Below, piece by piece: positions 8,843 to 32,664 of a DNA stretch of 64,000 bases. Positions within the stretch are counted from its first letter, which is position 1, and every line of letters begins with the position of its first letter. Origin of the DNA: Endomicrobium proavitum (GTDB lineage Bacteria; Elusimicrobiota; Endomicrobiia; Endomicrobiales; Endomicrobiaceae); NCBI RefSeq assembly GCF_001027545.1, contig NZ_CP009498.1, positions 1-64,000 of the forward strand, given 5' to 3'. Both the position numbers and the translations under genes were made by a program. The notes under the pieces are model-generated. The model did not search any database. It saw only the letters and a list, made by a program, of their open reading frames with translations, and was not told the DNA's origin.

Positions 8843-8955
8843 AACGGCAAAGTGAAAAGTGACACACTTGTGTGTCATTGCCGAAATCCGTAATCGGCAA
8901 TCCACGTTTGCTAAATATTAGATGTATGCATTATATCTTTAAAAGTGAGAAGTGG
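8843..8955 (+). repeat. Dispersed composite repeat, type A
   Basis: About 113 bp right behind the autotransporter stop codon. It begins AACGGCAAAGTGAAAAGTGAC and contains a small palindrome (ACACACTTGTGTGT) and the core TGTCAT-TGCCGA-loop-TCGGCA-ATCCA (8873-8904). An almost identical copy lies inverted at 32551-32664, and a related type with a different but still complementary stem lies at 32313-32425 and 12409-12516. Confidence 0.85.
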
Positions 8956-8970
8956 AAATAATAACAAATA

Positions 8971-9008
8971 AAAAAACCGGAAGGGTTAAAACTTTTCCGG
9001 TTTTTTTT
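8971..9008 (+). terminator. Rho-independent terminator after the autotransporter
   Basis: AACCGGAA and TTCCGGTT form a stem around a loop of about 10 nt, followed by a run of eight T. It lies 130 bp past the autotransporter stop, and the dispersed repeat sits between gene and terminator. The same order of OmpA-domain gene, repeat and CCGGAA-type terminator recurs at 32313-32477. Confidence 0.85.
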
Positions 9009-9278
9009 GTTTGTTGCTTGTAGTTGTTAGCAGTTGCCGCTTCAGTGCGGTTTATGAGTGGAAAAATTTAATCGACGAGTCTAATTTTTATGTGTTTGAG
9101 TGCAGGAAGTGCGCTAGTTTATAAAAATTGCCGATTAAATTTTGTAACGAATGCGCTGCGGCGGCGGGCGTTTTGCTTACTTTTTTGCTCGTGAAAAAGT
9201 GAAGCAGGGTTTGGTGCGCAGCGCCCAAGGCGTTGCCTTGAATCTCAACTCAAAATAAAAAATGACAATAATTACAGA
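9009..9278. other. Non-coding gap without a recognisable gene
   Basis: No supported reading frame. The stretch is locally more GC-rich than its surroundings (9150-9240) and contains a hairpin near 9180-9203 in which ACTTTTT pairs with AAAAAGT around a GCTCG-containing loop, plus a GGCGCTGCGC-like palindromic area. It may be decayed repeat DNA. Nothing here identifies a function. Confidence 0.4.
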
Positions 9279-9307
9279 TTGAAAAAGCAATAATATTGTG
9301 TTATAAA
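9279..9307 (+). promoter_or_regulatory. Sigma70-type promoter for the CCA enzyme, predicted leaderless
   Basis: TTGAAA (9279-9284), 17-bp spacer, TATAAA (9302-9307). Only 8 nt separate the -10 box from the ATG at 9316, and there is no Shine-Dalgarno sequence between them, so transcription would start at or next to the start codon. Confidence 0.6.
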
Positions 9308-9315
9308 TAAAATGT

Positions 9316-10695
9316 ATGAAAACAAAAATTCCAAATAAATTTATGTCAATAATAGAAAAAATTGCAGTTACTGCAAAAGAGTCCGGTTTTGAGGCGTATG
9401 CGGTTGGCGGTTTTGTGCGGGATATTTTTATTTCCAGGGAGCCTAAAGATTTGGATATTATGGCTCAAAGCGCCAATGTTTCGGATAACAGCCGTCTTGA
9501 CGGCGTTAATTTTTCTAAAATTATTGCAAAAAAATATAACTTGCACGAACCCGTAATTTTTGAAAGATTCGGCACGTCTAAACTTTTAATTGATAATGAA
9601 GAAGTTGAATTTGTTATGCCGAGAAAAGAATATTACGACGATAACTCCAGAAATCCGGATACTGAAATCGGCTCGCTTCAACAAGACGCGTTAAGACGCG
9701 ATTTTACAATCAACGCTTTGTTTTTACGTTTAAACGATATGGAAGTTTTAGACTTAACCGGCAAAGGGCTTGAAGATTTAAAAAATAAAATTATAAGAGT
9801 TACCGACCCTGAAAGCGCCGAGTTAATTTTTGCGCAAGACCCTTTAAGAACGCTGCGCGCCGTGCGTCAAAGTTTACAGCTTAATTTTGAAATTGAGCCC
9901 GATACTTACAAGGCAATGAAAACCACAGCCGGCAGAATTTCCATAGTTGCCCCCGAACGTATTCGCGATGAAATAAATAAAATTTTAATTGAAAAAAATC
10001 CTTCTGTTGCTTTTGAAATGGCAGACGATATAAATTTGCTTAAAAATATTTTTCCGGAAATTGAAAGGTTGAAAAATTTGCAGCAACCTGAAAAATACCA
10101 CAGCGACGATGTTTTTACGCATACAATGAAAGTTTTAAACAGAGTGCCGCCGGAGCTTGTTTTAAGAACCGCCGCTCTTTTGCATGATATCGGAAAGTTC
10201 GCAGCATGTAAAAATGAAAACGGAAAAATTACTTTTTACGGGCACGAATTAGAAAGCGTAAAGTTAGCGGAAAATATTTTGAAAAGATTAAAGTATTCCA
10301 AAGATTTCACAACGCAGGTTTTGCTTGTAATAAAAAATCATATGTATCCTAAAATGTACACAGCGCAATGGTCTGACGCTGCAATAAGACGTTTTGCCCG
10401 CGCCTGCGGAGAAAATTTAAATTTAGTTTTAGAACTTTCAAAAGCAGATTACGGGAAAGATAAGTCGGACGATAAACTTGAAGAGCTTATAAAACGCATA
10501 GACGATTTAAAAAATAAAAATATTCTTTACGTTACAAAAGAATTGTTAAGCGGCGACGAATTAAAAAAATATTTTAATCTCCCAGACGGCAAATGGATAT
10601 CCCAAGCCAAAGAAAAAATAACCGAACTACAACTTGAAACCCCAACCCTAACAAAAGAAGAAGCTTTTGAAGCCATAAAAAAGATATTACAGTAA
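9316..10695 (+). CDS. cca: CCA tRNA nucleotidyltransferase / poly(A) polymerase family, with HD domain
   Basis: Class II nucleotidyltransferase of 459 residues that adds or repairs the 3' CCA of tRNAs. The N-terminal head has GGFVRD (31-36), the metal-binding DLD (45-47) and RRDFTINAL (126-134). A C-terminal HD phosphohydrolase-type domain follows, with LLHDIGK near residue 290. The length fits the HD-containing subgroup. CCA-adding, A-adding and poly(A) enzymes of this family cannot be told apart by eye. The gene stands alone between two repeat-rich gaps and appears to be read from a promoter that leaves no 5' leader. The tmRNA in this window seems not to encode its own CCA, so an enzyme of this kind would be needed to mature it. 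Confidence 0.9.
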   Translation: MKTKIPNKFMSIIEKIAVTAKESGFEAYAVGGFVRDIFISREPKDLDIMAQSANVSDNSRLDGVNFSKIIAKKYNLHEPVIFERFGTSKLLIDNEEVEFVMPRKEYYDDNSRNPDTEIGSLQQDALRRDFTINALFLRLNDMEVLDLTGKGLEDLKNKIIRVTDPESAELIFAQDPLRTLRAVRQSLQLNFEIEPDTYKAMKTTAGRISIVAPERIRDEINKILIEKNPSVAFEMADDINLLKNIFPEIERLKNLQQPEKYHSDDVFTHTMKVLNRVPPELVLRTAALLHDIGKFAACKNENGKITFYGHELESVKLAENILKRLKYSKDFTTQVLLVIKNHMYPKMYTAQWSDAAIRRFARACGENLNLVLELSKADYGKDKSDDKLEELIKRIDDLKNKNILYVTKELLSGDELKKYFNLPDGKWISQAKEKITELQLETPTLTKEEAFEAIKKILQ

Positions 10696-10733
10696 GCAGC
10701 ATGGTTCATTATATGTCTGATAAACTCGTGAAA

Positions 10734-10858
10734 TGTCATTCCTGCGAAAGCAGGAATCCACAGTTACTAAAAATAATAAAAATCCCTACACGCCGAAGGC
10801 GTGAATTGTCGAAGATGATAATTAGTAAAAATGGATTCCTGCTTTCGCAGGAATGACA
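10734..10858. repeat. Facing pair of palindromic repeats between cca and queE
   Basis: TGTCAT-TCCTGC-GAAA-GCAGGA-ATCCA at 10734-10760 and its exact inverse TGGAT-TCCTGC-TTTC-GCAGGA-ATGACA at 10832-10858 face each other about 70 bp apart. Each unit is a hairpin, and the two together form a larger inverted repeat, a layout like a miniature element with structured ends. The gap lies between the convergent ends of cca and queE. Confidence 0.85.
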
Positions 10859-10941
10859 AACCAATTGTTTTGTGGTTAATTCCGCTTTTTACCCGTCTTC
10901 GGGACTTCGTTCCTACGACGCGGCACGCTTTACCGTTATGG

Positions 10942-11703
10942 TTATCTAATCCTTAAAATCTTATGCAGTTGCGGCATTATCAATACGTTCGGGAGTGTTT
11001 TTTTTAGTTCCGTGTAAAATGCGGATAGGTTTTTTGCAAGAGGAATGTCTTTGCCGGTTGAAGGTTGTAAAATAAGACATATTTTTTTAGAGGCGCTGCG
11101 GATAATTTGTCCGCTGCGCTTTATTTCATTTAATGATGTATTTTTCGTAACAACGCATTTTACAAATACTTTATCTTTTGCGATTTTTAAAAATTCTTTA
11201 TGTTCTTTCCAAAAACTTTTTTTGCATTCGGATTGAAATTTAAAATCCATTGAAACTATATCGCAGAAAGAAATAATCTTTTTTAAATTTTTCGGAAGAG
11301 TTCCGTTTGTTTCCAAGTAAACTTGAAAGCCGTATTTTTTTAATGCCGGTAAAAAAACTTTTAAAAAATCGGCATGTATCAACGGTTCCCCGCCGGTTAT
11401 TGCTATTGACGGTTTAGATGTACCTGTCATTGCGAAGCGCGAAGCGCCGCGGCAATCCATTTTTTTTAAAATTTTTTCAATTTCAGCAAGCAGTTCTTGA
11501 GAAGAGTAATATTTAGCATTGTCGGATATTTTTATAGAATAAGCCGTATCGCAGTAATTACACTTTATATTGCACCCGGCAAAACGCACAAAAATTTGAG
11601 GAGTTCCCGTATAAGGACCTTCCCCTTGGTAAGAAAAAAACACTTCATAAACCGGAGCATAGATGTTTGTTATTGGTTTTTGTTTTTTAACTTTGCTTTT
11701 CAC
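10942..11703 (-). CDS. queE: 7-carboxy-7-deazaguanine synthase (radical SAM), with in-frame repeat insertion
   Basis: Radical-SAM enzyme that converts 6-carboxytetrahydropterin to 7-carboxy-7-deazaguanine in queuosine/preQ0 synthesis. QGEG at 26-29 and the CxxxCxxC cluster motif (Cys44, 48, 51) are family hallmarks, and ITGGEP lies at 102-107. GTG at 11703 is the start. Residues about 82-94 are encoded by a palindromic repeat (11425-11459) inserted between the helix before ITGGEP and the strand itself. Other family members have only a short turn there, and the reading frame is kept. The gene is last in the order queD-queC-queE on this strand, so its product works right after QueD. Confidence 0.92.
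   Translation of the reverse strand: MKSKVKKQKPITNIYAPVYEVFFSYQGEGPYTGTPQIFVRFAGCNIKCNYCDTAYSIKISDNAKYYSSQELLAEIEKILKKMDCRGASRFAMTGTSKPSIAITGGEPLIHADFLKVFLPALKKYGFQVYLETNGTLPKNLKKIISFCDIVSMDFKFQSECKKSFWKEHKEFLKIAKDKVFVKCVVTKNTSLNEIKRSGQIIRSASKKICLILQPSTGKDIPLAKNLSAFYTELKKTLPNVLIMPQLHKILRIR
11425..11459. repeat. Palindromic repeat in frame inside queE
   Basis: TGTCAT at 11425-11430 and ATCCA at 11455-11459 flank a GC-rich, imperfectly self-complementary core. The framework is that of the intergenic copies. On the coding strand it reads through without a stop and adds about 13 residues (MDCRGASRF and following) to QueE. Confidence 0.8.
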
Positions 11704-11759
11704 TTTTCACCCGTTTTCGGCGATTTGCTTCTACGCTGCGGCAAGTTTTTCTTTTTGTT

Positions 11760-12413
11760 TTAAATTGCCGGATCGTTAAGTTCTGCTTCTTTAAAACCTT
11801 TTGCTCTCAATTTGCATGAGTCGCATGTGCCGCAAGGTTTTTTCAAACCGTTATAACAAGACCATGTGTATTGATACGGAACTTTTAATTTTCCGCCGAG
11901 TTTTATAATTTGGGCTTTTGTCATGTTTACGAGAGGAGCCTGAACCGTAATTTTTAATCCGAGAGATTTCAGCAGTCCGTTGTATGCTTTTATAAACTCA
12001 GGTCTGCAGTCGGGGTAGCCGGAATAATCCAGCGCGTTTGCGCCGATAAAAATACTTCGCGCGTTTATTGATTCCGCATAAGAAAGTCCGTAAGATAAAA
12101 AAAGCGTGTTGCGTCCGGGAACGTAAGTTGCGGGGATAATGTCTTTTATAACTTTATGCGTAGGAACTTTTTTATTTTTGTTTGTAAGAACGTCTTTAGA
12201 CCACGGCAGAGAAAGTTTAATAACGGTAAAATCCGCCTTTACAAGTTTTGCAATTTTCTGCGCGGATTTTATTTCTCTTTTATGACGCTGCCCATAATCA
12301 AAAATTAAACAATAGCACTTATAACCTTTTGACAAAGCGTAATAAAGCGCCGTCGTAGAATCTAACCCGCTGGAAAACAAAATAACAGCATTTTGCTTTT
12401 GCCGTATTTTCAC
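11760..12413 (-). CDS. queC: 7-cyano-7-deazaguanine (preQ0) synthase
   Basis: ATP-dependent enzyme that turns 7-carboxy-7-deazaguanine into preQ0. The 217-residue protein has the PP-loop motif SSGLDS at 14-19 and the C-terminal zinc-binding cysteines 186, 194, 197 and 200 (CGTCDSC). Translation most likely starts at GTG 12413. The GGAGAG ribosome-binding site and the GTG both lie in the end of a dispersed repeat that fills the gap to queD. Length and motifs are normal for the family. It is the middle gene of the queD-queC-queE set. Confidence 0.93.
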   Translation of the reverse strand: MKIRQKQNAVILFSSGLDSTTALYYALSKGYKCYCLIFDYGQRHKREIKSAQKIAKLVKADFTVIKLSLPWSKDVLTNKNKKVPTHKVIKDIIPATYVPGRNTLFLSYGLSYAESINARSIFIGANALDYSGYPDCRPEFIKAYNGLLKSLGLKITVQAPLVNMTKAQIIKLGGKLKVPYQYTWSCYNGLKKPCGTCDSCKLRAKGFKEAELNDPAI

Positions 12414-12516
12414 TTTTCACTCTCCACTTTACCGTTAAATAATGAACACGTATAATATTTAGCAAACGTGGATCCCGGATTAAGACATTCCGGGATGACA
12501 CTTCGTGTCGCTCTTC
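12409..12516 (-). repeat. Dispersed composite repeat, type B, filling the queD-queC gap
   Basis: The reverse complement closely matches 32313-32425. The core is TGGAT-CCCGGA-loop-TCCGGG-ATGACA (12469-12500 on the plus strand). At one end the repeat sequence provides the TGA of queD; at the other it provides the GGAGAG and GTG that start queC. The gap holds nothing else. Confidence 0.85.
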
Positions 12517-12886
12517 ACTCTGCTGTTATTGTTGCCGAAGAAGTGTCGCTTTCCCAAACTTCTACTTCCGCCACTTTTGCGGTAAGCGTTTCGGCTTTTT
12601 TTAATTCTTCAAAAATATACAAGGCTATGTTTTCTGCCGTGGGGTTTATTTTGTCAAAAGGCGCGGTTTCGTTTAAAAATTTATGGTCTAAATAAGTCAT
12701 AATTTTATCAAGATGCGCTTTCAAATCCGTAAAATCTATAAGCATTCCCGTTTTGTCTAATTGCGTTCCGCCAAATGCCGCGCGGATTTTCCAATTGTGC
12801 CCGTGGACGTTTTCGCACTTGCCTTTATATTCTCTTAGACAATGCGCCGAGGCAAAACCTTTTGTAACCGATAATTTATATTTCAT
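12515..12886 (-). CDS. queD: 6-carboxy-5,6,7,8-tetrahydropterin synthase
   Basis: Converts dihydroneopterin triphosphate to 6-carboxytetrahydropterin, the first dedicated step toward queuosine. The 123-residue protein has zinc ligands His15, His28 and His30 (VHGHNW) and the catalytic Cys24. The LDHKFLNE segment with His68 and a C-terminal VWES complete the pattern. The start codon overlaps the murI stop by 4 nt, implying coupled translation with murI. The last residues and the stop codon sit in the edge of a dispersed repeat. Confidence 0.93.
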   Translation of the reverse strand: MKYKLSVTKGFASAHCLREYKGKCENVHGHNWKIRAAFGGTQLDKTGMLIDFTDLKAHLDKIMTYLDHKFLNETAPFDKINPTAENIALYIFEELKKAETLTAKVAEVEVWESDTSSATITAE

Positions 12887-13713
12887 GCGCGCTCCGGATT
12901 TATTTTTGTTACTTTAGATATTTTATTTGAGAAAAATTTGCCGCCTATTTGCGCAAATTTTTCAGGGTTGTCGCTTACATAAAAAGCCAGCGTCCCTTTT
13001 TTTGAATTTTTTGAGGATATTTTATTTTTTTCTAAAATATTTTTAACTTCATTTGCCGTTGCTTTTGCGGAATCAACAAGAGTTATTTTTTTACCTGCAT
13101 TTTTTTGCAAAGAGTTTTTTAGAATAGGATAGTGCGTGCAGCCTAAAACAAGCGTGTCTATATTTTTTTTAAGCAAAGGTTTAAGGTAATGGCGCACTAT
13201 ATCGTCGGTAACTTTGTTGTTAACCCAGCCTTCTTCCACAAGCGGAACAAAAAGCGGGCACGCCTGCTGGCTTACGGAATATCCCGATATTTTTTTTATA
13301 GCTTTTAAATAAGAACCGCTTTGAACCGTGCCTTCGGTTCCTATAACGCCGATATTTTTGTTTTTTGTAACTGCCGCCGCGGCTTTTGCGCCCGGGTCAA
13401 TTACGCCTATAACGGGAACTTTTAAATTTTTCTTTAAATTATCCAAAGCAAAGGCGGACGCAGTATTGCACGCAACAACTATAAGTTTCACGTCTTTTTT
13501 TATTAAAAAACCCGCAATATCTTTTGAAAAATTAATAACCGCATTTTTTGATTTTGACCCGTAAGGCACGTGCGCCGTGTCGCCGAAATAAATAAGATTT
13601 TCTTTCGGCAGACATTTGCGTATTTCGGACATAACGGTAAGCCCGCCGAACCCCGAGTCAAATATTCCTATAGGTTTATTTTCCGTTGTTTTGTTTTTTT
13701 TCTTTGTGGGCAT
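12883..13713 (-). CDS. murI: Glutamate racemase
   Basis: Interconverts L- and D-glutamate for peptidoglycan. GIFDSGFGG lies at residues 16-24, and the two catalytic cysteines are in VACNTAS and LGCTHYP. A longer frame opens at 13776, but the residues before MPTKKK have no family counterpart, and the ATG at 13713 gives a normal protein of about 276 residues. The gene overlaps the 3' end of the amidase gene by 38 bp and the start of queD by 4 bp. The pairing with a cell-wall amidase upstream fits an envelope role; the queuosine genes downstream appear to share the transcript. Confidence 0.92.
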   Translation of the reverse strand: MPTKKKNKTTENKPIGIFDSGFGGLTVMSEIRKCLPKENLIYFGDTAHVPYGSKSKNAVINFSKDIAGFLIKKDVKLIVVACNTASAFALDNLKKNLKVPVIGVIDPGAKAAAAVTKNKNIGVIGTEGTVQSGSYLKAIKKISGYSVSQQACPLFVPLVEEGWVNNKVTDDIVRHYLKPLLKKNIDTLVLGCTHYPILKNSLQKNAGKKITLVDSAKATANEVKNILEKNKISSKNSKKGTLAFYVSDNPEKFAQIGGKFFSNKISKVTKINPERA

Positions 13714-15370
13714 AGAAGTTTTTAATTCCCTCGTATATTGAATCTGCAATTGCGGTTTGAAAAGTTTTTGTGCCAAGCTTTGATTCTTCGGAATAGTTGC
13801 TTATAAAAGCGCTTTCAACAAGCACCGCCGGCATTTGCGAACCTCTTAAAACATAGAAGCTTGCCTGCTTTACGCCCCTGTTGGATATTTTAAGCCTTTC
13901 CGGAGTTTGGGCGGCTATAAACCCTCCGAGTTCCGACGAGTCGTTTATGTATTCGTTTAACATCATAGACCATAACATGTCCTGCAAAAGAGCGCGTTTT
14001 TTTGTGGGTTTTCCTTCAAGCTCTATAACGGAGTTTTCAAGAGTTGCCGTAGCCTGCGCTTCGGAATCGGTGGCTTTTTCCGACAAGAAATAAACTTCAA
14101 AACCGTTTACGGCTCTGTCAAAATTGGCGTTGCAGTGAATGGAAATAAACAAGTCCGCGTTATTTTCATTTGCAATATTTGTTCTTTCAACAAGCGGAAT
14201 GAACGTGTCGTCTTTTCTTGTAAGAATTACTTCAAACTCGTCGTCGTCGTTTAAAATATTTTTAAGCTCTAACGCAATTGCGAGATTTATAATTTTTTCT
14301 TTTGTGGCGTTAGGGCCTACGGCTCCCGGATCTTCGCCGCCGTGTCCGGCGTCAACAACGATAATTTTTTTGCGTCCCGTGTAAGGTTTTTTCGGCGTCT
14401 TCTGAGGGACAACGTCCGGAAGCGTAGTTGTGTCGTCTATTATTACGTAACTGTCGTCGGCTATGTTTGCTTCTTCAAACGTTACAACGGGCACAGCCGC
14501 CAAATCGGAGTTGTCTCCGGTTTCGGCTCCGTCAACAATTTCCGATATTTCTTCCGTTCTTTCTTTTGCCGGTTCGGAATTATCTAAAACCGTTGTTGCT
14601 GCGCTTTCTGAAATATCCACTTCTTTGGAGTGGGCAATTTCAACCGATATTCTGTCGGGATTTTTTAACGCGTGGCTGTAAACAACTTTCGGCGTCTGCA
14701 TTAAATTTATTTGAATATAGGCTGCCTTGCCTTCCGTTTCGCTGAAAATATCGCGCACCGCTCCGTTGTCTAAATTTATAAGATTTCTTTGAATTTTGCC
14801 GCGGTGAACCGTAAGCAAAATGGCGCCGGTAGCTTTGGATATTGTGTATGGAAGAGGTTCCGTAAGACCTATTATAAGCTCTGTTTTTTCCGGAGTCGTA
14901 AAGTATCGTATTGAAGAAATATTTTCGCGGCGTTTAACATTTAGTATAAGAGAGTCCGCGTTCCACAACGCGTCGGCTTCAACAATGTCGGAAAATTCTT
15001 TAGACGTAATAATTTCAGGCGGTATATAAATTTCATTTTTTATAAGTCTTGAAGGCAGGGACATTTTTTTTCTTTTTTTGCCGAAAACTACGGAAGTTGA
15101 GTTTGCTTTTATATCTATTTTGCGATTGCCGGCGCGCAAGATAACTTCCGCGCTTAACTGTTTCCAGTCAATTGTAAGCCCGTAAATTGCGGCAATTTCT
15201 TTCACCGAAAAATATTTTGTATTTTCGGAAACCGGGTAGGCGTTAATTCCGTTGTAAGGTTGTCCGTCAATTACCGCGTTAACTTTTTTTGACGCAGGAG
15301 CATCCTCCTGCGCAAAAACATTCGCGCAAATAACCATAACAGCCAATAATAAAAATAAAATCTTTTTCAT
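13676..15370 (-). CDS. N-acetylmuramoyl-L-alanine amidase (amidase_3) with AMIN-like domain
   Basis: A secreted 564-residue peptidoglycan amidase. The signal peptide (residues 1-20, ending ANVFAQ) is followed by a copper-amine-oxidase-N-like stalk domain (about 25-145) and an AMIN-type beta domain (about 150-235). Then come an acidic, low-complexity linker and a zinc amidase domain (about 335-555). The catalytic domain shows DAGHGGEDPG, the metal-binding Glu in TKEKIIN, ISIHCNA and the catalytic Glu in VLVESAF. The AMIN domain suggests targeting to the divisome or to the outer-membrane/wall interface, as in AmiC. The start codon overlaps the stop of the four-helix-bundle gene by 4 nt (ATGA). 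Confidence 0.9.
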   Translation of the reverse strand: MKKILFLLLAVMVICANVFAQEDAPASKKVNAVIDGQPYNGINAYPVSENTKYFSVKEIAAIYGLTIDWKQLSAEVILRAGNRKIDIKANSTSVVFGKKRKKMSLPSRLIKNEIYIPPEIITSKEFSDIVEADALWNADSLILNVKRRENISSIRYFTTPEKTELIIGLTEPLPYTISKATGAILLTVHRGKIQRNLINLDNGAVRDIFSETEGKAAYIQINLMQTPKVVYSHALKNPDRISVEIAHSKEVDISESAATTVLDNSEPAKERTEEISEIVDGAETGDNSDLAAVPVVTFEEANIADDSYVIIDDTTTLPDVVPQKTPKKPYTGRKKIIVVDAGHGGEDPGAVGPNATKEKIINLAIALELKNILNDDDEFEVILTRKDDTFIPLVERTNIANENNADLFISIHCNANFDRAVNGFEVYFLSEKATDSEAQATATLENSVIELEGKPTKKRALLQDMLWSMMLNEYINDSSELGGFIAAQTPERLKISNRGVKQASFYVLRGSQMPAVLVESAFISNYSEESKLGTKTFQTAIADSIYEGIKNFYAHKEKKQNNGK

Positions 15371-15732: not shown

Positions 15733-15753
15733 TATATTATTCCTTTTAATGGC

Positions 15754-15860: not shown

Positions 15861-15883
15861 TGTATGTCGTGCGCTTTTTGGGG

Positions 15884-16264
15884 TGGAGGTGGGGGGAATT
15901 GAACCCCCGTCCGAAAATGCGTCCGTAAGACCGCTACAGGCTTAGTTTGGAATTTTTTCTCGTTTGCGGCGCCCTCTCCAAACGGGATTACGCCGTAAAC
16001 CAGCTCCGTTTTGTTTTCGCATCAAGCTGACGGAACATGCCGCTTGAAACTAACCTGCTTTTGACGTTTTATCCAATTAGCAGATATCCTTGGTAAAACG
16101 AGGCTGACTTAAGCAGCCATTGCGGCAAATCCGAAACCGGAATTGCCAACATTAACGAAATTATCGTTGTTGTTTATTTTTTGGTCGATTTTTACGGAGC
16201 CATCGACCAACTCCGGCCTGCTGTCTTTACGTTCAAACATCCCCGTCGAACCCTGTTCACCCCC
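15884..16264 (-). ncRNA. ssrA: tmRNA (ssrA)
   Basis: Transfer-messenger RNA for ribosome rescue. The 5' end GGGGGTGAACAGGGTTCGAC and the 3' end with the T-arm GGGTTCAATTCCCC pair through the acceptor stem GGGGGTG/CACCTCC. The tag reading frame ends at 16109-16111. It reads NNNDNFVNVGNSGFGFAAMAA before TAA; the resume codon lies a few bases upstream, near 16170-16178, and is not certain. The encoded 3' end after the acceptor stem is ACCC rather than ACCA, so CCA would be added by the CCA enzyme. Pseudoknot stems follow the tag. It lies downstream of tadA on the same strand. Confidence 0.93.
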
Positions 16265-16312: not shown

Positions 16313-16822
16313 TCAGTTTCTTTTGTTTTTAAAGAACTGCTGTATTATTTTTGCGCATTCTTCTTTCAAAACTCCGCCTTTAAATGCAACTCGGTGGTTT
16401 AGTTTTTTATTGCCGGCAACTTTTAATACGCTTTTGCACGCTCCGGCTTTTTTGTCGGCGGCGCCGAAATAAATTTTACTTATGCGGGCGTTAACCAGCG
16501 CTCCGGCGCACATTGGGCAAGGCTCAATTGTAACATATATGTTGCAGCCGTTCAAACGATAGTTGGAAAGTTTTTTAGCGGCTTTTCTTAAAGCTATAAT
16601 TTCAGCGTGCGCCGTGGGGTCGCTGTCTGTAATGCATCTGTTAAAGCCTTTGGCGATAATTTTGCCGTCCTTAACAATAACCGCGCCTACGGGAACTTCT
16701 CCGATTTTTTCGGCTTTTGCCGCTTCTTTTAACGCCATGGTCATAAATTGAATGTCGTTATCGCCGTGAACGCAGGCAACGCGGCAATCTATTTTTTTAG
16801 TCAATCCGGATTGTTTTGCCAT
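16313..16822 (-). CDS. tadA: tRNA-specific adenosine deaminase
   Basis: Deaminates adenosine-34 to inosine in tRNA-Arg(ACG). Counted from the ATG at 16822, the zinc ligands are His72 (HAE, with catalytic Glu74) and the PCPMC cysteines at 102 and 105. The upstream gene ends at 16824, so this start follows it directly; a longer frame to 16861 is unlikely. Residues about 11-23 are encoded by a degenerate copy of the TGTCAT/ATCCA palindromic repeat, just before the first conserved helix (FMTMALKEA), giving a longer N-terminus than usual. Assignment as the tRNA enzyme rather than guanine deaminase rests on the motif pattern. Confidence 0.88.
   Translation of the reverse strand: MAKQSGLTKKIDCRVACVHGDNDIQFMTMALKEAAKAEKIGEVPVGAVIVKDGKIIAKGFNRCITDSDPTAHAEIIALRKAAKKLSNYRLNGCNIYVTIEPCPMCAGALVNARISKIYFGAADKKAGACKSVLKVAGNKKLNHRVAFKGGVLKEECAKIIQQFFKNKRN
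16753..16791. repeat. Degenerate palindromic repeat at the 5' end of tadA
   Basis: TGTCGT at 16753-16758 and ATCTA at 16787-16791 are one mismatch each from the family ends. The core (GCCGTGAACGCAGGCAACGCGGC) is only partly self-complementary. It sits in frame within tadA. It is weaker than the queE copy and may be an old insertion or coincidence. Confidence 0.45.
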
Positions 16823-16823
16823 T

Positions 16824-17237
16824 TTATTTCCCGCAATGACCGGCTTCAATATTTTTCTCAAAAATTTCGCGGATATCTTTGGGAAAGCGAACCACTTTTA
16901 AATCTTTATTTACAAACGGATGGACTGTTTTTCCGACCGCTAAAAGCTTATCATCGCACTTTACTTCATATTCGCAGGTTATGCTTGCGGCGCCAATATC
17001 GGTAAGTCTTGTTTCCACGGTTATTAAATCGTCGTATTTTGCCGGAGATTTATATTTGCATTCGGCGTAAGTTACGGGAAAACAAAATCCGCGTTTTTCA
17101 ATTTCTTTGTATTCAAGACCTATTTCCCGCAGCCATTCCGTTCTGCCTCTTTCAAAAAAAGTCAGATAATTTCCGTAATAAACCACGCCCATGGTGTCGG
17201 TGTCGGCGTAAGCTATTCTTAACTGCAGTTTATTCAT
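16824..17237 (-). CDS. YbgC/FadM-type acyl-CoA thioesterase (hotdog fold)
   Basis: A 4-hydroxybenzoyl-CoA-thioesterase-like protein of about 137 residues that hydrolyses acyl-CoA. The motif YADTDTMGVVYYGNYLTFFE (10-29), with the catalytic Asp in DTDTMGVV, defines the family. The frame extends to 17309, but ATG at 17237 has a good TTGGAGAAAT ribosome-binding site and gives the normal length. YbgC is linked to the Tol-Pal envelope system in other bacteria; no tol genes are seen here. Its stop is 1 nt from the tadA start, so the two form an operon. Confidence 0.85.
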   Translation of the reverse strand: MNKLQLRIAYADTDTMGVVYYGNYLTFFERGRTEWLREIGLEYKEIEKRGFCFPVTYAECKYKSPAKYDDLITVETRLTDIGAASITCEYEVKCDDKLLAVGKTVHPFVNKDLKVVRFPKDIREIFEKNIEAGHCGK

Positions 17238-26066: not shown

Positions 26067-26093
26067 TCAATAAAAATATATCGGGAGAAAAAG

Positions 26094-27251
26094 ATGATTA
26101 GATTTACCACGGCAGGCGAATCCCACGGAAGAGGGATTATTGCAATTCTTGAGGGAATTCCCGCAGGGCTTAACGTTAACTCGGAAGATATAGACGTAGA
26201 GCTTGCAAGAAGACAGAAAGGTTACGGCAGAGGCGCAAGAATGAGAATAGAGACCGACGTCGTAAAAGTTCTTTCGGGAATGCGTTACGCAAGAACAATC
26301 GGTTCGCCGATAGCGCTTTACGTTACAAACAGAGACTGGGAAAACTGGGAAAATATTATGTCTCCGATAGCCGTTGATTTAGACGGAGAAATTCTTTTAA
26401 AGCCGCGTCCGGGGCATGCAGACCTTGCGGGGCTTATGAAATACGGCTCTACAGATTTCAGAGATATTTTGGAAAGAGCGTCCGCCAGAGAAACCGCCGC
26501 AAGAGTTGCGGTCGGCGCGGTATGCAAAGAACTTTTAAAAGAGTTTGACATAAGAATTACTTCTTACACTTTGCAGATAGGAAATGTTACGGCGGATATT
26601 AATTCCGTTCCGGCTGAAAAAATATGGCACAATACGGAAATGTCTTATGTGCGCTGTCCCGACGCTGCGGCAAGCAAAAAAATGATACAGCTTATAAAAA
26701 AGACCGGCTCGCAGGGCGATACTTTGGGCGGCAAACTTGCGGTTAAAATAGAAAACGTTCCCGCGGGTCTTGGAAGCCACACCCAGTGGGATTTAAAATT
26801 AGACGGAAGACTTGCGCAGAGTTTTCTTTCAATACAGGCAATTAAAGCCGTAGAGTTTGGCAGCGGATCAAAACTTGCGGCTATCCCCGGATCTTTATCT
26901 CACGACGAAATTTTTTATAACGATAAAAAAGGTTTTTACAGAAATACAAACAGGGCGGGCGGCATTGAAGGCGGAATGTCTAACGGCGAAACTATAGAAA
27001 TTTCGTGCACAATGAAAGCTATACCGTCTCTTGCAAAACCGCTGCGTTCGGTAAATTTAAGCACAAAGAAAGCGGCCAAAGCGGAAGCTGTGCGCAGCGA
27101 CGTTTGCGCGGTGCCTGCCGCCGGAATTGTTGCGGAAGCTGTCGCGGCGTTTGAAATTGCAAAAGCTCTTAAAGAAAAATTCGGCGGCGACAATATTGAA
27201 GATATGAAAAAAAGCGTAGCCGCTTATAAAGCAAGACTTAAAAACATATAA
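26094..27251 (+). CDS. aroC: Chorismate synthase
   Basis: Last step of the shikimate pathway: converts EPSP to chorismate using reduced FMN. Family signatures GESHGRGIIAILEGIPAGL at the N-terminus, RPGHADLAG, RASARETAARVAVGA and the C-terminal RAGGIEGGMSNGE are all visible. 385 residues, normal length. A GGGAG ribosome-binding site precedes the ATG. The shikimate kinase gene begins 2 nt after its stop. Confidence 0.96.
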   Translation: MIRFTTAGESHGRGIIAILEGIPAGLNVNSEDIDVELARRQKGYGRGARMRIETDVVKVLSGMRYARTIGSPIALYVTNRDWENWENIMSPIAVDLDGEILLKPRPGHADLAGLMKYGSTDFRDILERASARETAARVAVGAVCKELLKEFDIRITSYTLQIGNVTADINSVPAEKIWHNTEMSYVRCPDAAASKKMIQLIKKTGSQGDTLGGKLAVKIENVPAGLGSHTQWDLKLDGRLAQSFLSIQAIKAVEFGSGSKLAAIPGSLSHDEIFYNDKKGFYRNTNRAGGIEGGMSNGETIEISCTMKAIPSLAKPLRSVNLSTKKAAKAEAVRSDVCAVPAAGIVAEAVAAFEIAKALKEKFGGDNIEDMKKSVAAYKARLKNI

Positions 27252-27252
27252 T

Positions 27253-27777
27253 ATGAACATAGTTTTAACCGGATTTATGGGAAGCGGAAAATCGGCGGTA
27301 GGCGCGGAGCTTGCAAAAAAGCTCGGGTTTGAGTTTGTTGATACCGACGAAACCGTTGAAAAAGCATCCGGCGTTAAAATAAGCGAAATTTTTGCGCTCT
27401 ACGGCGAAGAAACTTTCAGAAATATGGAATTTGAAGCGGTTGCGGCTGCCGCTGAAAAAGATAACGCGGTAATAGCCACAGGCGGCGGAGCGGTTTTAAA
27501 CGCGCAGAATATAATTAATCTTAAAAGAAACGGAATTATTATTTATTTAAAAGCGTCGCCTGAAATAATATACGCAAGAATAAAAAACGAAACTCACAGA
27601 CCTTTGTTGAAGCTTGCAGACCCATTAAGCGAGATAAAAAAGTTATTGTCGGCGCGCAAAGACGCGTATGAAAAATACGATTTTTCTTTTGACGCAGGCG
27701 AAGGCAGCCCGCGGGAAATTGCCCAAAAAATAGCTTTGGACTCAGGCGTCAAAAAAATGCTGGAGGAAAAGATATGA
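27253..27777 (+). CDS. aroK: Shikimate kinase
   Basis: Phosphorylates shikimate, two steps before AroC. The P-loop GFMGSGKS lies at 7-14, the substrate-binding FVDTDE at about 31-36, EETFRNMEFEAV holds the shikimate-binding Arg, and ATGGGAVL lies at about 76-83. The lid-type sequence NETHRPLL follows. 174 residues. It forms an operon with aroC and overlaps the next gene by 4 nt. Confidence 0.94.
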   Translation: MNIVLTGFMGSGKSAVGAELAKKLGFEFVDTDETVEKASGVKISEIFALYGEETFRNMEFEAVAAAAEKDNAVIATGGGAVLNAQNIINLKRNGIIIYLKASPEIIYARIKNETHRPLLKLADPLSEIKKLLSARKDAYEKYDFSFDAGEGSPREIAQKIALDSGVKKMLEEKI

Positions 27778-28400
27778 AAAAATTTGCGGTAATATTATGT
27801 TTATTTTTTGTCGGAGTTTTTTTTGCAGCTTGCAACAACGTTGAGCTGGACACGTCTTTGTTTAAAGACGGCGATGTTATTTTTCAAAATAAAAAATCTA
27901 AGTCCGGCGATCTTTTGGCGTTTCTGTCAAACACAAAATATAATAACGCCGGAATTTTATTTTCAAGAGGCGGAAAATGGTATGTTTTGGAAGCCGTTCA
28001 GCCCGTGCAGCTTACGCCTTTAAAAAGCTGGATTAAAGAGGGCGAAGACAACCGCTACGTAGTTAAAAGGCTTAAAGAAGAGAGCACTCTTATTACGCCG
28101 CAAACGCTTGAAAGTATGAAAAAGTTTAACAGCGAATTCCTCGGAAAACCTTACGACCAGTATTACGAATGGTCGGACAGAGCGTTTTATTCTTCGGAGC
28201 TTATCTGGAAAATTTACAACAGGGCGCTGGGCATAGAAATTTCTCAGCTGCGCGTTTTTGCGGATTTTAATCTTGCCGATGAAAATGTTAAAACCCGTCT
28301 GCAGGAAGTTTTTGGAAATAATATTCCCATTTACGAACAAATTACCACCCCTGCTGATATTTTTAATTCTAACATGCTTATAACTATTGTTGAAAAATAA
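27774..28400 (+). CDS. YiiX/YebB-family lipoprotein lacking the catalytic Cys and His
   Basis: A 208-residue lipoprotein (lipobox FFAAC, Cys20) of the permuted NlpC/P60 (papain-like) YiiX family. The family pattern is clear along the whole protein: GDVIFQ, LEAVQPVQLTPLKSWI, GKPYD..YEWSDRAFY, SELIWKIYNRALG and NIPI. The two catalytic residues are replaced: the His of the YSHxG motif is Asn58 (YNNAG), and the Cys of YCSE is Ser140 (YSSE). It is therefore probably not a hydrolase and may bind lipid or peptidoglycan instead. The gene overlaps the aroK stop by 4 nt, so it is read with the aromatic genes. Confidence 0.85.
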   Translation: MKKFAVILCLFFVGVFFAACNNVELDTSLFKDGDVIFQNKKSKSGDLLAFLSNTKYNNAGILFSRGGKWYVLEAVQPVQLTPLKSWIKEGEDNRYVVKRLKEESTLITPQTLESMKKFNSEFLGKPYDQYYEWSDRAFYSSELIWKIYNRALGIEISQLRVFADFNLADENVKTRLQEVFGNNIPIYEQITTPADIFNSNMLITIVEK

Positions 28401-28430
28401 TTGAAAAATGAGCAAGTTTTCTTTAATAAA

Positions 28431-28459
28431 TTGACTAAAAAATACATAAATTATATAAT
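28431..28459 (+). promoter_or_regulatory. Strong sigma70-type promoter ahead of the barrel-protein gene
   Basis: TTGACT (28431-28436), 17-bp spacer, TATAAT (28454-28459). The match to consensus is near perfect. It rules out the upstream ATG at 28459, which lies in the -10 box, and fixes the TTG start at 28492. Confidence 0.8.
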
Positions 28460-28491
28460 TGATACATTATTATCTTTTGCGGGAGAATAAA

Positions 28492-29196
28492 TTGAAAAAA
28501 ATTGTTTTCGGACTTTTTATGGTTCTTGCGGCTGCTGCAAGCGCTCATGCCGGAAGGCTTTGGGTTATGGATTCTCCTACATCAAACATTTTAAATTACG
28601 GAGCATATGACGTTGATATAAGGTTTTTCAGCGCCGGCGGAGTGCAAACCCGTCTTGATTTCGGCGTGTTCAAAATTTTTAACATAGGCATAGCGTGGGA
28701 GTTTGATAAGTTTATCGGAAACGATAAAGTGCAAGTTGCAATTCCGGCGCTTTCGGCAAAGTTAGACGTTTACAGCGGCGATATGGATCTTCCGTCTATA
28801 GCGTTGGGCTACGACGGACAGGGATATTTTTTCAGCACGGATTATACCGACGATTACTTCCAGCTTGGCAAAGGCGTTTATTTTGTTTTGGGCAGGGAGG
28901 TTTTTTTTGAAGGGCTAACAATTAACGGCGGATTAAATATGAACAATTTCAGAAACGCTAAAGTTTACGCGTTTTTAAACGCCGAAGTCCCCTTGCTGAA
29001 AGATTACATAGCTTTTATGGCCGAATACGATAACTTTCATTACTTTGCCGACGCAAGATTAAATTTCGGTTTAAGATTTTCTTTAAGCGAATACATAGAT
29101 TTTGATTTTATAATGAGAGACTGCTGGGCGCCTAACGGCTTTGACAGAGTCCCTAACGAAAGAGTGTTTAAAATTAATTACTCGGGCAAGTTTTAA
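28492..29196 (+). CDS. Outer-membrane beta-barrel protein (YjbH-like)
   Basis: A secreted 234-residue protein. The signal peptide is KKIVFGLFMVLAAAASAHA, followed by aromatic-rich strands. Features such as ILNYGAYDVDIRFF, GVQTRLDFGVFK, IGIAWEF, LPSIALGYDGQGYF and a C-terminal strand ending in Phe resemble the small barrel/YjbH-like proteins with a PSIAIGYD motif. Function is unknown. The start is TTG at 28492, with GGAGA 5 nt upstream; an in-frame ATG further upstream lies in the promoter. It has its own strong promoter and is followed closely by accA. Confidence 0.7.
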   Translation: MKKIVFGLFMVLAAAASAHAGRLWVMDSPTSNILNYGAYDVDIRFFSAGGVQTRLDFGVFKIFNIGIAWEFDKFIGNDKVQVAIPALSAKLDVYSGDMDLPSIALGYDGQGYFFSTDYTDDYFQLGKGVYFVLGREVFFEGLTINGGLNMNNFRNAKVYAFLNAEVPLLKDYIAFMAEYDNFHYFADARLNFGLRFSLSEYIDFDFIMRDCWAPNGFDRVPNERVFKINYSGKF

Positions 29197-29205
29197 GGAG
29201 AATCA

Positions 29206-30264
29206 ATGGAAACGTCTTTTGACTTTGAGCAACCTTTAGTTGAGCTTGAAGAGAAAATAGAAGAGTTAAAAACGTCTTCGCTTAACAATCATGCCGATTT
29301 CTCTAAACAAATCGCTGAACTTGAAGCGAAAAAAGAAAATCTCAAACAAAAAATTTACGGTTCTCTTACGCCTTGGCAGAGAATACAAATTGCGCGCCAC
29401 CCAAAAAGACCTTACTCCGCCGATTATATAAAATTAATTTTTGAAGATTTTGTAGAACTTCACGGCGACAGAGTGTTTGGCGACGACCGCGCTCTTTTGT
29501 GCGGCATGGCGCTCTTGGACGGAAAGCCGGTAATAGTTATAGGTCATCAGAAGGGAAGAACGCTTCAGGAAAACATGGACAGAAATTTCGGCATGGCGCA
29601 CCCCGAAGGTTACCGCAAAGCCATGCGCATAATGAAACTTGCGGAAAAATTTAACAGACCCGTTATAACTTTTATAGATACATCCGGCGCTTATCCGGGA
29701 ATAGCCGCCGAAGAAAGAGGGCAAGCCGAAGCCATAGCCAGAAATTTAAGAGATATGGCAAAGCTTTCGGTTCCTGTTTTAAGCGTTGTTATCGGCGAGG
29801 GCGGTTCCGGCGGGGCGCTTGGCATAGGCGTGTCAAACAAAGTTTTGATGCTTGAAAATTCGTATTATTCCGTTATTTCTCCGGAAGGCTGCGCAGCCAT
29901 ACTTTTTAGAGACGGTTCTAAAGCGAAAGATGCGGCCGAAGCCATGAAAATTACCGCAAAGGATTTGTTAAATCTTAAAGTTATAGACGAAATAATAAAA
30001 GAACCTCTCGGCGGCGCGCATAACGACGCTGAAAAAACCGCGGTAAACATAAAAGCTTCTTTAAATAAATATATTAAACTTTACGAAGATATGTCCGCGC
30101 AAAAAATAGAAGACGACAGATATTCAAAGTTTCGCAACATGGGCGTTTTTGAAGAACCGGCTTCTTTCGTGAAAATTGTAAAAGAAAAAAAGCCTGCGGC
30201 AAAAGCGAAGGTAAAAGCAAAAACCGCGGCAAAATCCAAACCTAAAAAAACGGCAAAGAAGTAA
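29206..30264 (+). CDS. accA: Acetyl-CoA carboxylase carboxyltransferase subunit alpha
   Basis: Transfers the carboxyl group from biotin to acetyl-CoA to make malonyl-CoA for fatty acids. [16 protein letters not shown] at the N-terminus, [50 protein letters not shown] and [12 protein letters not shown] are family signatures. At 352 residues it is longer than usual because of a Lys/Ala-rich tail (about 325-352). The partner accD is not in the window. A strong GGAG site lies just after the barrel gene. Confidence 0.94.
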
Positions 30265-30288
30265 ACATATAATACAGGAGGAATCACA

Positions 30289-31284
30289 ATGGCATTAGTT
30301 CCGGCAAAACAGATTTTGGACGAAGCGAAAAAAGGCGGCTACGGCGTAGGCGCTTACAATGTAAACAACATGGAGCAGATTCAGGCAATTATGGACGCTG
30401 CGAAAGAAACGCAGTCTCCCGTAATAATTCAGGCAAGCCGCGGCGCGCTGAAATATGCAAGCTTTACTTACCTTGGGTATTTAATGAAAGCGGCGGTTAT
30501 TGAAAATCCGGATATTCCCGTTGCAATGCATTTAGATCACGGCAACTCTTTGGAATCCGCAATAAAAGCTATTGACCTCGGATTTTCTTCGGTTATGATA
30601 GACGGTTCGCTTTTGGAAGACGGAAAAACCGCTTCCGATTACGCTTACAATGTTAAAGTTACAAAATCAGTTGTGGAATACGCTCACGCAAGAGGCGTTT
30701 CGGTTGAAGCTGAAATAGGAACTCTCGGCGGAATTGAAGACGGCGTAGGTTCCGGCACAATTCATTTGACAGATCCGCAGGAAGCTAAAAAATTCGTAGA
30801 AGCCACCGGAGTTGATTCTTTGGCTATTGCCATAGGCACTTCGCACGGCGCGTATAAATTTAAAGAAACCCCTAAACTTGCTTTTGACGTTTTGAAAGAA
30901 ATCAGAGGGCTTATAAATATTCCTATCGTTCTTCACGGAGCGTCTTCGGTTCCGAAAGCTTTGATAGACGAAGTAAACAAATACGGCGGCAAAATGCCTG
31001 GCGCGCAGGGCGTTCCTATTGAGCAGCTTCAGGAATCGGTAAAACTCGGCGTTCAGAAAATTAACGTAGATACCGACGGCAGACTTGCAATTACCGCCGC
31101 TATCAGAAAAGTATTTACCGAAACTCCGGAAAAGTTTGACCCCAGAGATTATTTAGGACCTGCCAGAACGGCTCTTAAAAATCTTATAGTTACAAAAATG
31201 AAAGATTTCGGCACCGCGGGACACGCTAAAGATTACGCGCCGAAATCTCTTGAAGATTACAAGAAGCTTTACGCCTCTAAGTAA
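30289..31284 (+). CDS. fba: Fructose-bisphosphate aldolase, class II
   Basis: Zinc-dependent glycolytic and gluconeogenic aldolase, 331 residues. AYNVNN, the catalytic HLDHG (81-85), a SVMIDGS segment, EAEIG(T)LGG, TSHGAYKF and LHGASS give the metal and phosphate sites. The long insert after LHGASS (KYGGKMPGAQGVPIEQL) fits the class IIB type. An AGGAGGAAT site precedes the ATG. It is followed by a hairpin that probably ends the unit. Confidence 0.94.
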   Translation: MALVPAKQILDEAKKGGYGVGAYNVNNMEQIQAIMDAAKETQSPVIIQASRGALKYASFTYLGYLMKAAVIENPDIPVAMHLDHGNSLESAIKAIDLGFSSVMIDGSLLEDGKTASDYAYNVKVTKSVVEYAHARGVSVEAEIGTLGGIEDGVGSGTIHLTDPQEAKKFVEATGVDSLAIAIGTSHGAYKFKETPKLAFDVLKEIRGLINIPIVLHGASSVPKALIDEVNKYGGKMPGAQGVPIEQLQESVKLGVQKINVDTDGRLAITAAIRKVFTETPEKFDPRDYLGPARTALKNLIVTKMKDFGTAGHAKDYAPKSLEDYKKLYASK

Positions 31285-31327
31285 AAATTCGCGGTTGTTT
31301 GATTTTTAGGATTTTGAAAACTATTCG

Positions 31328-31361
31328 GCGCACGCTTTACATAAAATGTTAAAGCGTGCGC
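31328..31361 (+). terminator. Hairpin after fba
   Basis: GCGCACGCTTTA pairs perfectly with TAAAGCGTGCGC around a 10-nt loop. There is no long T run, so it may be a weak terminator or a 3'-end stabiliser. Confidence 0.5.
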
Positions 31362-31381
31362 CCATAATATAGGAGGCGTTT

Positions 31382-31660
31382 ATGTCGTTTTACCATATAA
31401 AGAGAATTGACGTTTCTTCGGTTTTTAAAACAGTGCCTTTGGTTTCTGCCTCGGTAAACGCTGTTTTGGCTGTGGGATATTTCTTTCTTGTCCAAGCTCA
31501 AAATGTAACGCTTTCGCAGAAACTGCAGTTTGTGTTTGTGCTGTTTGCAATTTTAACGATGTTTGTAACTTTGGTTTCAATTCTTTTCGTATTTTTTTAC
31601 AATATATTTTCAAAAAAATTGGGTGCAAACGTAGTTGTTGCGCTTGAACCTAAAGAATAA
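31382..31660 (+). CDS. Small two-helix membrane protein (DUF3566-like)
   Basis: 92 residues with two membrane helices (about 18-37 and 48-73). IKRIDVSSVFK at the start and YNIFSKKLGANVVVALEPKE at the end resemble the layout of DUF3566 proteins, whose function is not known. AGGAGG precedes the ATG. It lies between fba and an OmpA lipoprotein gene, 15 nt before the latter, so the two may share a transcript. Confidence 0.65.
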   Translation: MSFYHIKRIDVSSVFKTVPLVSASVNAVLAVGYFFLVQAQNVTLSQKLQFVFVLFAILTMFVTLVSILFVFFYNIFSKKLGANVVVALEPKE

Positions 31661-31675
31661 CAGGGAGAATCTCAC

Positions 31676-32314
31676 ATGAATAAAGTTTTGTTGACGGCGC
31701 TTGGTTTTTGTCTTTTGGCGGCGGCTTGCACAACGCCTGGTAAAAATACGGCAATCGGCGCAGGGGCGGGCGCGGCGGTAGGCGCAGTTACCGGAGCGGT
31801 TATTGCAAATAATACAAAAGGCGGAGAAGCGTGGAAAGGCGCAGTTATCGGCGGAGCGGCAGGAGCGGTTGCCGGCGGAGCAATAGGCAATTATTTTGAC
31901 AAACAGGCCAAAGAACTTGCGGCAATTGCAGACGTTGCAAAAACAAACGACGGTTTAAGAATAACTCTTAAAAACGATATTCTTTTTTCAGTAAACAGCG
32001 CGGAGTTATCTTCCGCTGCGCAAAAAACTCTTACGGATTTGAATACGGTTTTGAAAAAATACCCTCAAAACATTATAGTTGTGGAAGGCAATACCGACAA
32101 TACCGGTTCTGCCGCAACCAACAAAACGCTGTCCGAAAAAAGAGCAAAAGCTGTTTATGACTTTTTGCTTGGCACCGGACTTAAAACCTACAAAATTTCT
32201 TACATAGGCTACGGTTTAACAAACCCTATTGCCGATAACTCAACTGAAGAAGGTCGCGCAAAAAACAGAAGAGTAAACTTGGACATAACAGCTAACACGG
32301 CAGCAATTAAATAA
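31676..32314 (+). CDS. OmpA-family lipoprotein with glycine-zipper segment
   Basis: 212 residues. The lipobox LLAAAC (Cys18) is followed by a Gly/Ala-rich zipper (about 26-72, GAGAGAAVGAVTG and GAVIGGAAGAVAGG). An OmpA-like peptidoglycan-binding domain (about 90-208) has VEGNTDNTGS, LSEKRAKAVYDFL, GYGLTNPIADN and KNRRVNL. It likely links the outer membrane to the wall, as Pal or YiaD do. HTD of the usual motif is NTD. The stop codon runs into a dispersed repeat, like the OmpA-domain autotransporter at the start of the window. Confidence 0.9.
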   Translation: MNKVLLTALGFCLLAAACTTPGKNTAIGAGAGAAVGAVTGAVIANNTKGGEAWKGAVIGGAAGAVAGGAIGNYFDKQAKELAAIADVAKTNDGLRITLKNDILFSVNSAELSSAAQKTLTDLNTVLKKYPQNIIVVEGNTDNTGSAATNKTLSEKRAKAVYDFLLGTGLKTYKISYIGYGLTNPIADNSTEEGRAKNRRVNLDITANTAAIK

Positions 32315-32425
32315 CGGCAAAGTGAAAAGTGACACGAAGTGTCATCCCGGAATGTCTTAATCCGGGATCCACGTTTGCTAAATATTATACGTGTTCATTA
32401 TTTAACGGCAAAGTGGAAAGTGAAA
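32313..32425 (+). repeat. Dispersed composite repeat, type B
   Basis: It begins and ends with the near-identical words AACGGCAAAGTGAAAAGTGA and AACGGCAAAGTGGAAAGTGA, giving direct repeats of about 20 bp around roughly 70 bp. The core is TGTCAT-CCCGGA-loop-TCCGGG-ATCCA (32340-32371). The inverted sister copy is at 12409-12516. The first bases overlap the stop codon of the OmpA lipoprotein. Confidence 0.85.
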
Positions 32426-32436
32426 TTTACGACAAA

Positions 32437-32477
32437 TAAAAAAAACCGGAAGAGTTATAACTCTTCCGGTTTTTTTA
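32437..32477 (+). terminator. Rho-independent terminator after the OmpA lipoprotein
   Basis: AACCGGAAGAGTT and AACTCTTCCGGTT form a perfect stem followed by seven T, with A residues upstream so that it can act in both directions. It uses the same CCGGAA stem as the terminator at 8971-9008. Confidence 0.88.
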
Positions 32478-32550
32478 TATTTATAGATTCTGTTATTTTG
32501 CCCATCTTGAGATGAGATTTCGTATTATTTTGTAGTTTTTTGCCGTGAAT

Positions 32551-32664
32551 TTCACTTTTCGCTTTAAAAGATGTAATGCATACATCTAATATTTAGCAAC
32601 CGTGGATTGCCGATTACGGATTTCGGCAATGACACACAAGTGTGTCACTTTTCACTTTGCCGTT
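32551..32664 (-). repeat. Dispersed composite repeat, type A, inverted copy
   Basis: The reverse complement is almost identical to 8843-8955, with a few differences in the last 40 bases. The core TGGAT-TGCCGA-loop-TCGGCA-ATGACA is at 32603-32634. With the type B copy at 32313 it brackets the terminator in the 445-bp gap before the hydrogenase operon; no gene lies in this gap. Confidence 0.85.

Follow-up and report, generated by a model that had tools for sequence, protein, structure and literature searches.

The first 64,000 nucleotides of contig NZ_CP009498.1 of the termite-gut bacterium Endomicrobium proavitum (assembly GCF_001027545.1; Elusimicrobiota), hereafter the window, contain short palindromic repeats in which a fixed frame, TGTCAT..ATCCA, encloses a variable stem and a loop. 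They form a genuine family of short hairpins in DNA and belong to a known and widespread class of repetitive extragenic palindromes (REPs), those tagged with CGTC. Their occurrence in Elusimicrobiota is new as far as our searches show: no earlier report of REPs in this phylum was found in the open-licence literature, and Elusimicrobiota are absent from the covered portions of the description of the CGTC-tagged superfamily (Di Nocera et al., 2013; PMC3733652). The repeats are a TGTC variant of this superfamily, and we hold it to be reasonably probable that they are moved as head-to-head pairs by an enzyme that acts in trans and is not a resident Y1 transposase.

The repeat family and its structural code

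In the complete E. proavitum genome (one contig of 1,588,979 bp) the frame is matched 58 times (30 and 28 by strand), as compared to 5 matches of the reversed pattern. A covariance model gave 50 matches at E ≤ 0.01, so that the family comprises about 50 copies and extends over the whole genome, which an earlier note on this DNA had proposed to search; per-genome counts obtained by covariance search are lower bounds, since the best 150 or 63 candidates were scored. The same note had claimed that the stems covary, and pairing is indeed far above chance, both in a shuffle test on this genome and in the frame matches of two other genomes of the genus, G002 and G003 (a sample of 726.6 kb). When 37 distinct frame matches of E. 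proavitum were chosen regardless of pairing, 15 had at least four inner pairs, all of them exactly six, and the remaining 22 fell short of four; 2000 shuffles gave 0.62 such matches on average and never more than 4. In G002 and G003, 73 of 95 frame matches were fully paired, 5 had one mismatch and 17 had more, with respect to 8 frame matches in the reversed sequence, all with at least three mismatches. These two sets are the unselected tests. In a set of 15 rows preselected for pairing, both partners change at four of the seven pairs, and 100% of the cells are paired, as compared to 14–44% when slid.

The dimensions of the hairpin were measured in G002 and G003 with a ruler script seeded on the loops GAAA and CTTGA only, leaving tag and tail free. 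Among perfect hairpins of at least 6 bp, the stem was exactly 8 bp long in 37 of 39 with the CTTGA loop and in 15 of 25 with the GAAA loop (52 of 64 together), whereas the shuffled control yielded five hairpins, all of 6 bp. The 8-bp stem starts with AT in 52 of 52 cases, is preceded by a YGTC tag in 49 and is followed by a CCA tail in 32; in a second set of hairpins from these genomes the tail was present in 56 of 90. The tags of these 90 hairpins, which were collected with the pattern [ACT]GTC, were TGTC (67), CGTC (20) and AGTC (3).

Loops were counted in 118 fully paired hairpins from the three genomes. Four-base loops are GAAA in 25 cases out of 25 and five-base loops are CTTGA in 39 out of 47, while nine-base loops (37 of 118) are variable in sequence (ATGTCTTAA and others). 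Although 46 loops exceed five bases, the 37 nine-base ones included, we still counted the loops of four and five bases as a likeness to CGTC-tagged REPs. The pair that closes the stem follows the loop: it is pyrimidine-purine in all 25 hairpins with four-base loops, purine-pyrimidine in all 47 with five-base loops and A-T in all 37 with nine-base loops; these counts are not independent, because the copies are related by descent. The lack of a pair above the stem (0 of 57) was not counted separately, being a consequence of the conserved loops. The part of PMC4686876 covered here describes unusually stable DNA mini-hairpins formed by GNNA loops on G-C pairs. The code thus consists of a YGTC tag, an 8-bp stem starting with AT, six positions that are free but paired, mostly three classes of loop and a tail that is mostly CCA.

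According to the covered portions of PMC3733652, CGTC-tagged REPs carry CGTC (TGTC in many), stems of 8–9 bp starting with AT, loops of 4–5 bases and CCA tails, are mostly arranged as head-to-head dimers, and include RPE-4 and RPE-6 of Rickettsia conorii and the dRS3 repeats of Neisseria. The Endomicrobium repeats share with them the CGTC/TGTC tag, the AT start, the 8-bp stem, the loops of four and five bases and the CCA tail, as well as the head-to-head dimers, the presence of copies inside genes and the absence of a dedicated transposase. They differ in that TGTC dominates, in that compound units with heptamer repeats occur, and in the common nine-base loop, which those portions do not describe. 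The earlier note had likened the repeats to Rickettsia palindromic elements (RPEs) and to REPs, a comparison borne out by the placing of RPE-4 and RPE-6 among the CGTC REPs in the same portions; insertion in frame within genes is a further shared trait, but the lineage is another, and the likeness is one of class. Hairpins paired head-to-head, in which the outer tag is fixed and the stems vary, are also found in REPINs and GTAG REPs associated with RAYT (REP-associated tyrosine transposase) genes, from which our repeats are distinguished by the tag, YGTC instead of GTAG (GTRG), and by the lack of a flanking RAYT gene in the searches reported below. Miniature inverted-repeat transposable elements (MITEs) are likewise short and non-coding with inverted ends; in Endomicrobium, however, the ends are themselves hairpins, and the tested dimers lack a target duplication.

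Arrangement, compound units and mobility

Close neighbours are mostly placed head-to-head, with the tags outward. This holds for 21 of 25 in G002 and G003 (3 head-to-tail, 1 tail-to-tail) and for 8 of 11 in E. proavitum (2 head-to-tail, 1 tail-to-tail), and among loci from other phyla 54 head-to-head arrangements were counted as compared to 11 and 11 in the other two orientations. The two REPs of one pair usually have different stems. No direct repeat of 2 to 8 bases was present at the 20 head-to-head pairs of G002 and G003 with full flanks, where the sequence just outside both tags is T-rich. In the same two genomes the flanks mostly differ by eye, although nine-loop copies often follow a AAATCCTCTCTTT-like stretch and spacers share motifs. 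A spacer motif, GTTAAAAGACATAAGG (up to two mismatches), occurs 14, 14 and 21 times in the genomes G001, G002 and G003, respectively, vs. 4–6 times in controls, and is not enriched in E. proavitum (1 vs. 3). An autonomous long element between head-to-head REPs 250–3500 bp apart was considered and discarded, both hairpins being different in 11 of the 11 pairs listed, and the stretches read showed neither a full-length transposon with the same ends nor an element with REPs at its borders. When G003 (contig C1, 6543–8110) is aligned with G002 (contig C51, 2–1568), the intergenic place of a G002 REP pair is seen to be occupied in G003 by an unrelated palindromic repeat (TAGATGCA..TGCATCTA).

Some copies lie within units of about 113 bp, which the earlier note had described as carrying terminal direct repeats. 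The unit is real; its direct repeats belong to a separate element, (AAAGTGA)n heptamers with AACGGC and TTAACGGC as borders. Among 68 heptamer clusters of E. proavitum, built from 100 of the 101 matches listed, 36 lack an exact REP frame at distances up to 140 bp, and a variant or partial REP is inside or next to at least 5 of the 36. A control with the reversed heptamer pattern was uninformative, its reverse being nearly identical to the pattern itself. The 113-bp units are REPs lodged in a separate, genome-wide heptamer repeat. Further heptamer repeats, with and without REPs inside, were noticed at 417224, 1544453 and elsewhere in the genome.

Mobility was to be judged, as the earlier note had suggested, from orthologous sites that lack the repeat; it is partly supported, in that some such sites exist, while several E. 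proavitum copies came with duplicated genes. One case is the related TGTCATTGCGA..GGCAATCCA repeat at 11425–11459 (+), which encodes MDCRGASRFAMT in frame within queE (10942–11703, −). Its shape is different, the stem being interrupted, and its fold is not better than that of shuffles (z −0.10). The residues encoded by this repeat are missing from 20 of 21 aligned relatives, among which the length of the loop is variable (two further rows of the alignment are blank). In the exception, genome G026, that QueE loop is occupied by another insert, namely two GTCATTGCGA..GCAATCT repeats read in frame, so that the queE genes of two families hold different repeat inserts at one permissive loop. REPs within genes are known from several species, as reported in the covered text of PMC3733652, and queE adds to them two different inserts in the same protein loop.

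Exact 27-mers of the GAAA class were found at 120 or more loci. The 80 loci that are named, mostly in metagenome assemblies, come from many phyla (Bacteroidota, Chloroflexi, Nitrospirae, candidate phyla) and from one archaeal bin, binning errors being possible. Outside Endomicrobium, sites were compared in Azospirillum plasmids. Two plasmids related to p3 of Azospirillum argentinense Az39 (97% and 96% identity) lack, at the matching place, about 74 bp that in p3 comprise a CGTC REP with a truncated partner; the filled site is flanked on either side by CCCCC, which is ambiguous as a target duplication. In TSH58, about 175 bp including a full REP pair are missing from five related plasmids. In Azospirillum lipoferum AZO_p5 a REP pair appears by eye to be nested in the arms of another REP-like palindrome. 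Phage records gave two weak partial matches.

The search for a mover and the competing explanations

On our preferred reading, the mobile unit would be the head-to-head pair, and the enzyme would recognise single-stranded DNA hairpins through tag, loop and stem length, and not through the letters of the stem. Movement would be non-autonomous and in trans, as for REPINs, by an enzyme that is not present in E. proavitum in the form of a Y1 transposase. Passive multiplication has taken place as well, through the duplication of surface-protein genes and, as we think, by recombination between heptamer repeats. That a single enzyme family, not Y1, reads YGTC hairpins (8-bp ruler, loop-specific closing pairs) in single-stranded form and has carried these elements into many bacterial phyla is a more ambitious extension, to which we give little credence.

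A transposase of the Y1 type (RAYT or IS200-like) that spread the copies, and has since been lost from E. proavitum or acts from visiting DNA, is a possible but doubtful alternative. The covered part of PMC6006769 proposes that GTAG REPs are moved by Y1 enzymes, and Y1 genes are widespread in the phylum, with 55 of 119 genomes carrying them. The earlier note had called for a check for a resident Y1 gene, and none was detected: PF01797 has no match in E. proavitum. The association was examined through co-occurrence in sets of 41 and 119 genomes, through the flanks of 31 Y1 loci and by applying our own Y1 profile to 120 REP loci (the positive control of this profile used training sequences). REPs (E ≤ 0.001) were present in 61 of the 119 genomes; 32 had both REPs and Y1, 29 REPs only, 23 Y1 only and 35 neither. 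Fisher's test gave p = 0.20 for any REPs and p = 0.07 for at least 20 REPs, while genomes with at least 10 REPs had Y1 more often (21 of 34 vs. 34 of 85, p = 0.04, one of three uncorrected thresholds), and 13 of these 34 REP-rich genomes lack Y1. The link is thus at most weak. Just 4 of the 31 Y1 loci contain YGTC hairpins (13 hairpins in 94.8 kb), and each of these is more than 400 bp away from the Y1 match. At 5 of 8 Y1 loci of relatives the gene is enclosed by its own inverted repeats, whose arms are at least 95% complementary; none of these repeats is a YGTC hairpin.

The preferred reading, a non-Y1 enzyme acting in trans, must itself face several observations. Our profile found no Y1 gene in 0.80 Mb around the REPs of other phyla (120 loci), an absence that tells against the Y1 alternative and also weighs on our own reading; no transposase-like family was seen by eye among the 15 families of open reading frames (ORFs) that recur in at least 3 of 120 REP loci. 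Just 42 of 90 hairpins in G002 and G003 sit in head-to-head pairs, most E. proavitum copies are single, and 9 of the 118 loops measure 6, 7 or 12 bases. Within Endomicrobium, the case for mobility depends on distant relatives (queE identity 40–65%), and none of three alignments among the three genomes that span REPs shows a clean empty site. Neither plasmid case is clean: at the Az39 site the partner is truncated, CCCCC stands on either side and another insert, of about 175 bp, lies close by, and the TSH58 insert carries extra flanking sequence; two further sites are too diverged for comparison and one more has no relatives.

As a partner gene, candidates from an all-against-all comparison of 3402 ORFs in the 120 loci were rejected, the two largest families (14 and 10 loci) resembling by eye response regulators and ABC transporters. 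The same absence of a dedicated transposase at CGTC REPs was reported in 2013 by Di Nocera et al. (covered portions of PMC3733652), and no mover of these REPs is named in the covered parts of PMC6006769 and PMC5896051. The class had no known mover in 2013, and the stem ruler together with the loop and closing-pair code provides a testable recognition rule. E. proavitum has been isolated, carries about 50 copies and yielded no Y1 gene, and so offers a clean background for finding the enzyme. The Neisseria dRS3 repeat is said to have been linked to a RAYT, in a report that our literature search did not find.

The repeats could also have multiplied without any transposon, through gene duplication, repeat recombination and template switching, with hairpin-templated repair keeping the arms complementary. 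Such repair could maintain paired stems and counts against our reading as well; it makes the earlier note's inference, that covariation means selection or propagation acting on structure, reasonable without being forced. In keeping with a non-transposon origin, six CTTGA dimers occupy the same place in paralogous genes, three tandem compound units lie 118 bp apart at 297164–297431 of the genome, and several nine-loop copies follow the ends of paralogous genes, where heptamers are accompanied by a REP at 8873 (after an OmpA domain) and 76036 and stand without one at 417238. We nevertheless consider this explanation unlikely, as it accounts neither for the sharp rules of 8-bp stem, tag, loop and closing pair nor for the same exact 27-mers in many phyla, and the G002 and G003 flanks mostly differ, shared stretches aside. 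Selection for an RNA-level role, as terminators or mRNA stabilisers, would agree with RNA roles proposed for REPs (covered text of PMC3733652) and with an excess between convergent genes, above expectation at 9 of 43 extragenic REP sites vs. 28 of 302 intergenic regions in G002 and G003 (mechanical ORF calls). By the same calls, however, 14 of 57 sites lie inside ORFs, and no Rfam family matches the REP copies of the window. G-T pairs, tolerated in RNA, make up 5 of 438 pairs in the frame matches of these genomes. Their rarity speaks for DNA as opposed to RNA, although it could also result from recent copying; we judge an RNA role very improbable. Equally hard to credit is that the repeats are chiefly target sites for other mobile DNA: the 20-bp dRS3 repeat is listed as the target of the Nf phage transposase of Neisseria (covered part of PMC4471427), but being a target does not multiply a repeat, and the stretches read contained no REP-bounded element.

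Repeat copies in the window

All eight clear copies claimed by the earlier note have the exact frame and lie at the positions it gave, and the four stems that it named (ACCGTG/CACGGT, TGCCGA/TCGGCA, TCCTGC/GCAGGA and CCCGGA/TCCGGG) are correct; of its two degenerate copies, 88–109 is a good inverted partner and 16753–16791 is doubtful. The clearest head-to-head pair is the 125-bp dimer at 10734–10858, which folds as one long hairpin (z −14.65) and consists of two GAAA-loop REPs, the left half at 10734–10760 (+; fold z −6.65) and the right half at 10832–10858 (−).

The REP at 46–73 (+, loop CTTGA) is the left half of a head-to-head dimer and forms part of the in-frame N-terminus of ORF 1–8838; 14 nt away lies its degenerate GAAA-loop partner (88–109, −), which has lost the tag. 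The ORF encodes 2945 amino acids, with tandem repeats of about 159–165 bp and autotransporter and OmpA domains at the end. Altogether six paralogous autotransporter-like ORFs, which stay open over the length read, have the CTTGA dimer in frame in their leaders, the other sites being at 215680, 411205, 478137, 642812 and 1241187 of the genome; these dimers arose along with their genes. Downstream of the dimers at 215680, 478137 and 1241187, more in-frame TGTCA-framed repeats (such as CTGTCATCCTGAGGGCAATTGCCCTTCAGGATATGC) were observed.

Four copies have nine-base loops and are found with heptamer repeats. The REP at 8873–8904 (+, loop AATCCGTAA, inner stem TGCCGA; fold z −4.55) belongs to a compound unit at 8843–8960 (+, ends approximate) made of a heptamer repeat (8849–8862), the REP, a spacer and a heptamer remnant. 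That at 12469–12500 (−, loop ATGTCTTAA, inner stem CCCGGA) lies beside the heptamer repeat 12410–12423. The same loop and stem recur at 32340–32371 (+; fold z −3.19), inside a unit at 32313–32423 (+) with heptamer repeats at 32319–32332 and 32410–32423. Finally, the REP at 32603–32634 (−) has again loop AATCCGTAA and inner stem TGCCGA and is contained in a unit at 32552–32664 (−, outer end approximate) with heptamer repeats at 32552–32565 and 32645–32658.

The doubtful relic of the frame at 16753–16791 (+) folds no better than shuffles (z +0.49) and lies in the N-terminus of a TadA-like deaminase ORF (16313–16861, −; Pfam MafB19-deam and dCMP_cyt_deam_1), a weak case of a copy within a gene because the N-termini do not align. 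A tmRNA gene (Rfam RF00023) is located at 15881–16264 on the minus strand.

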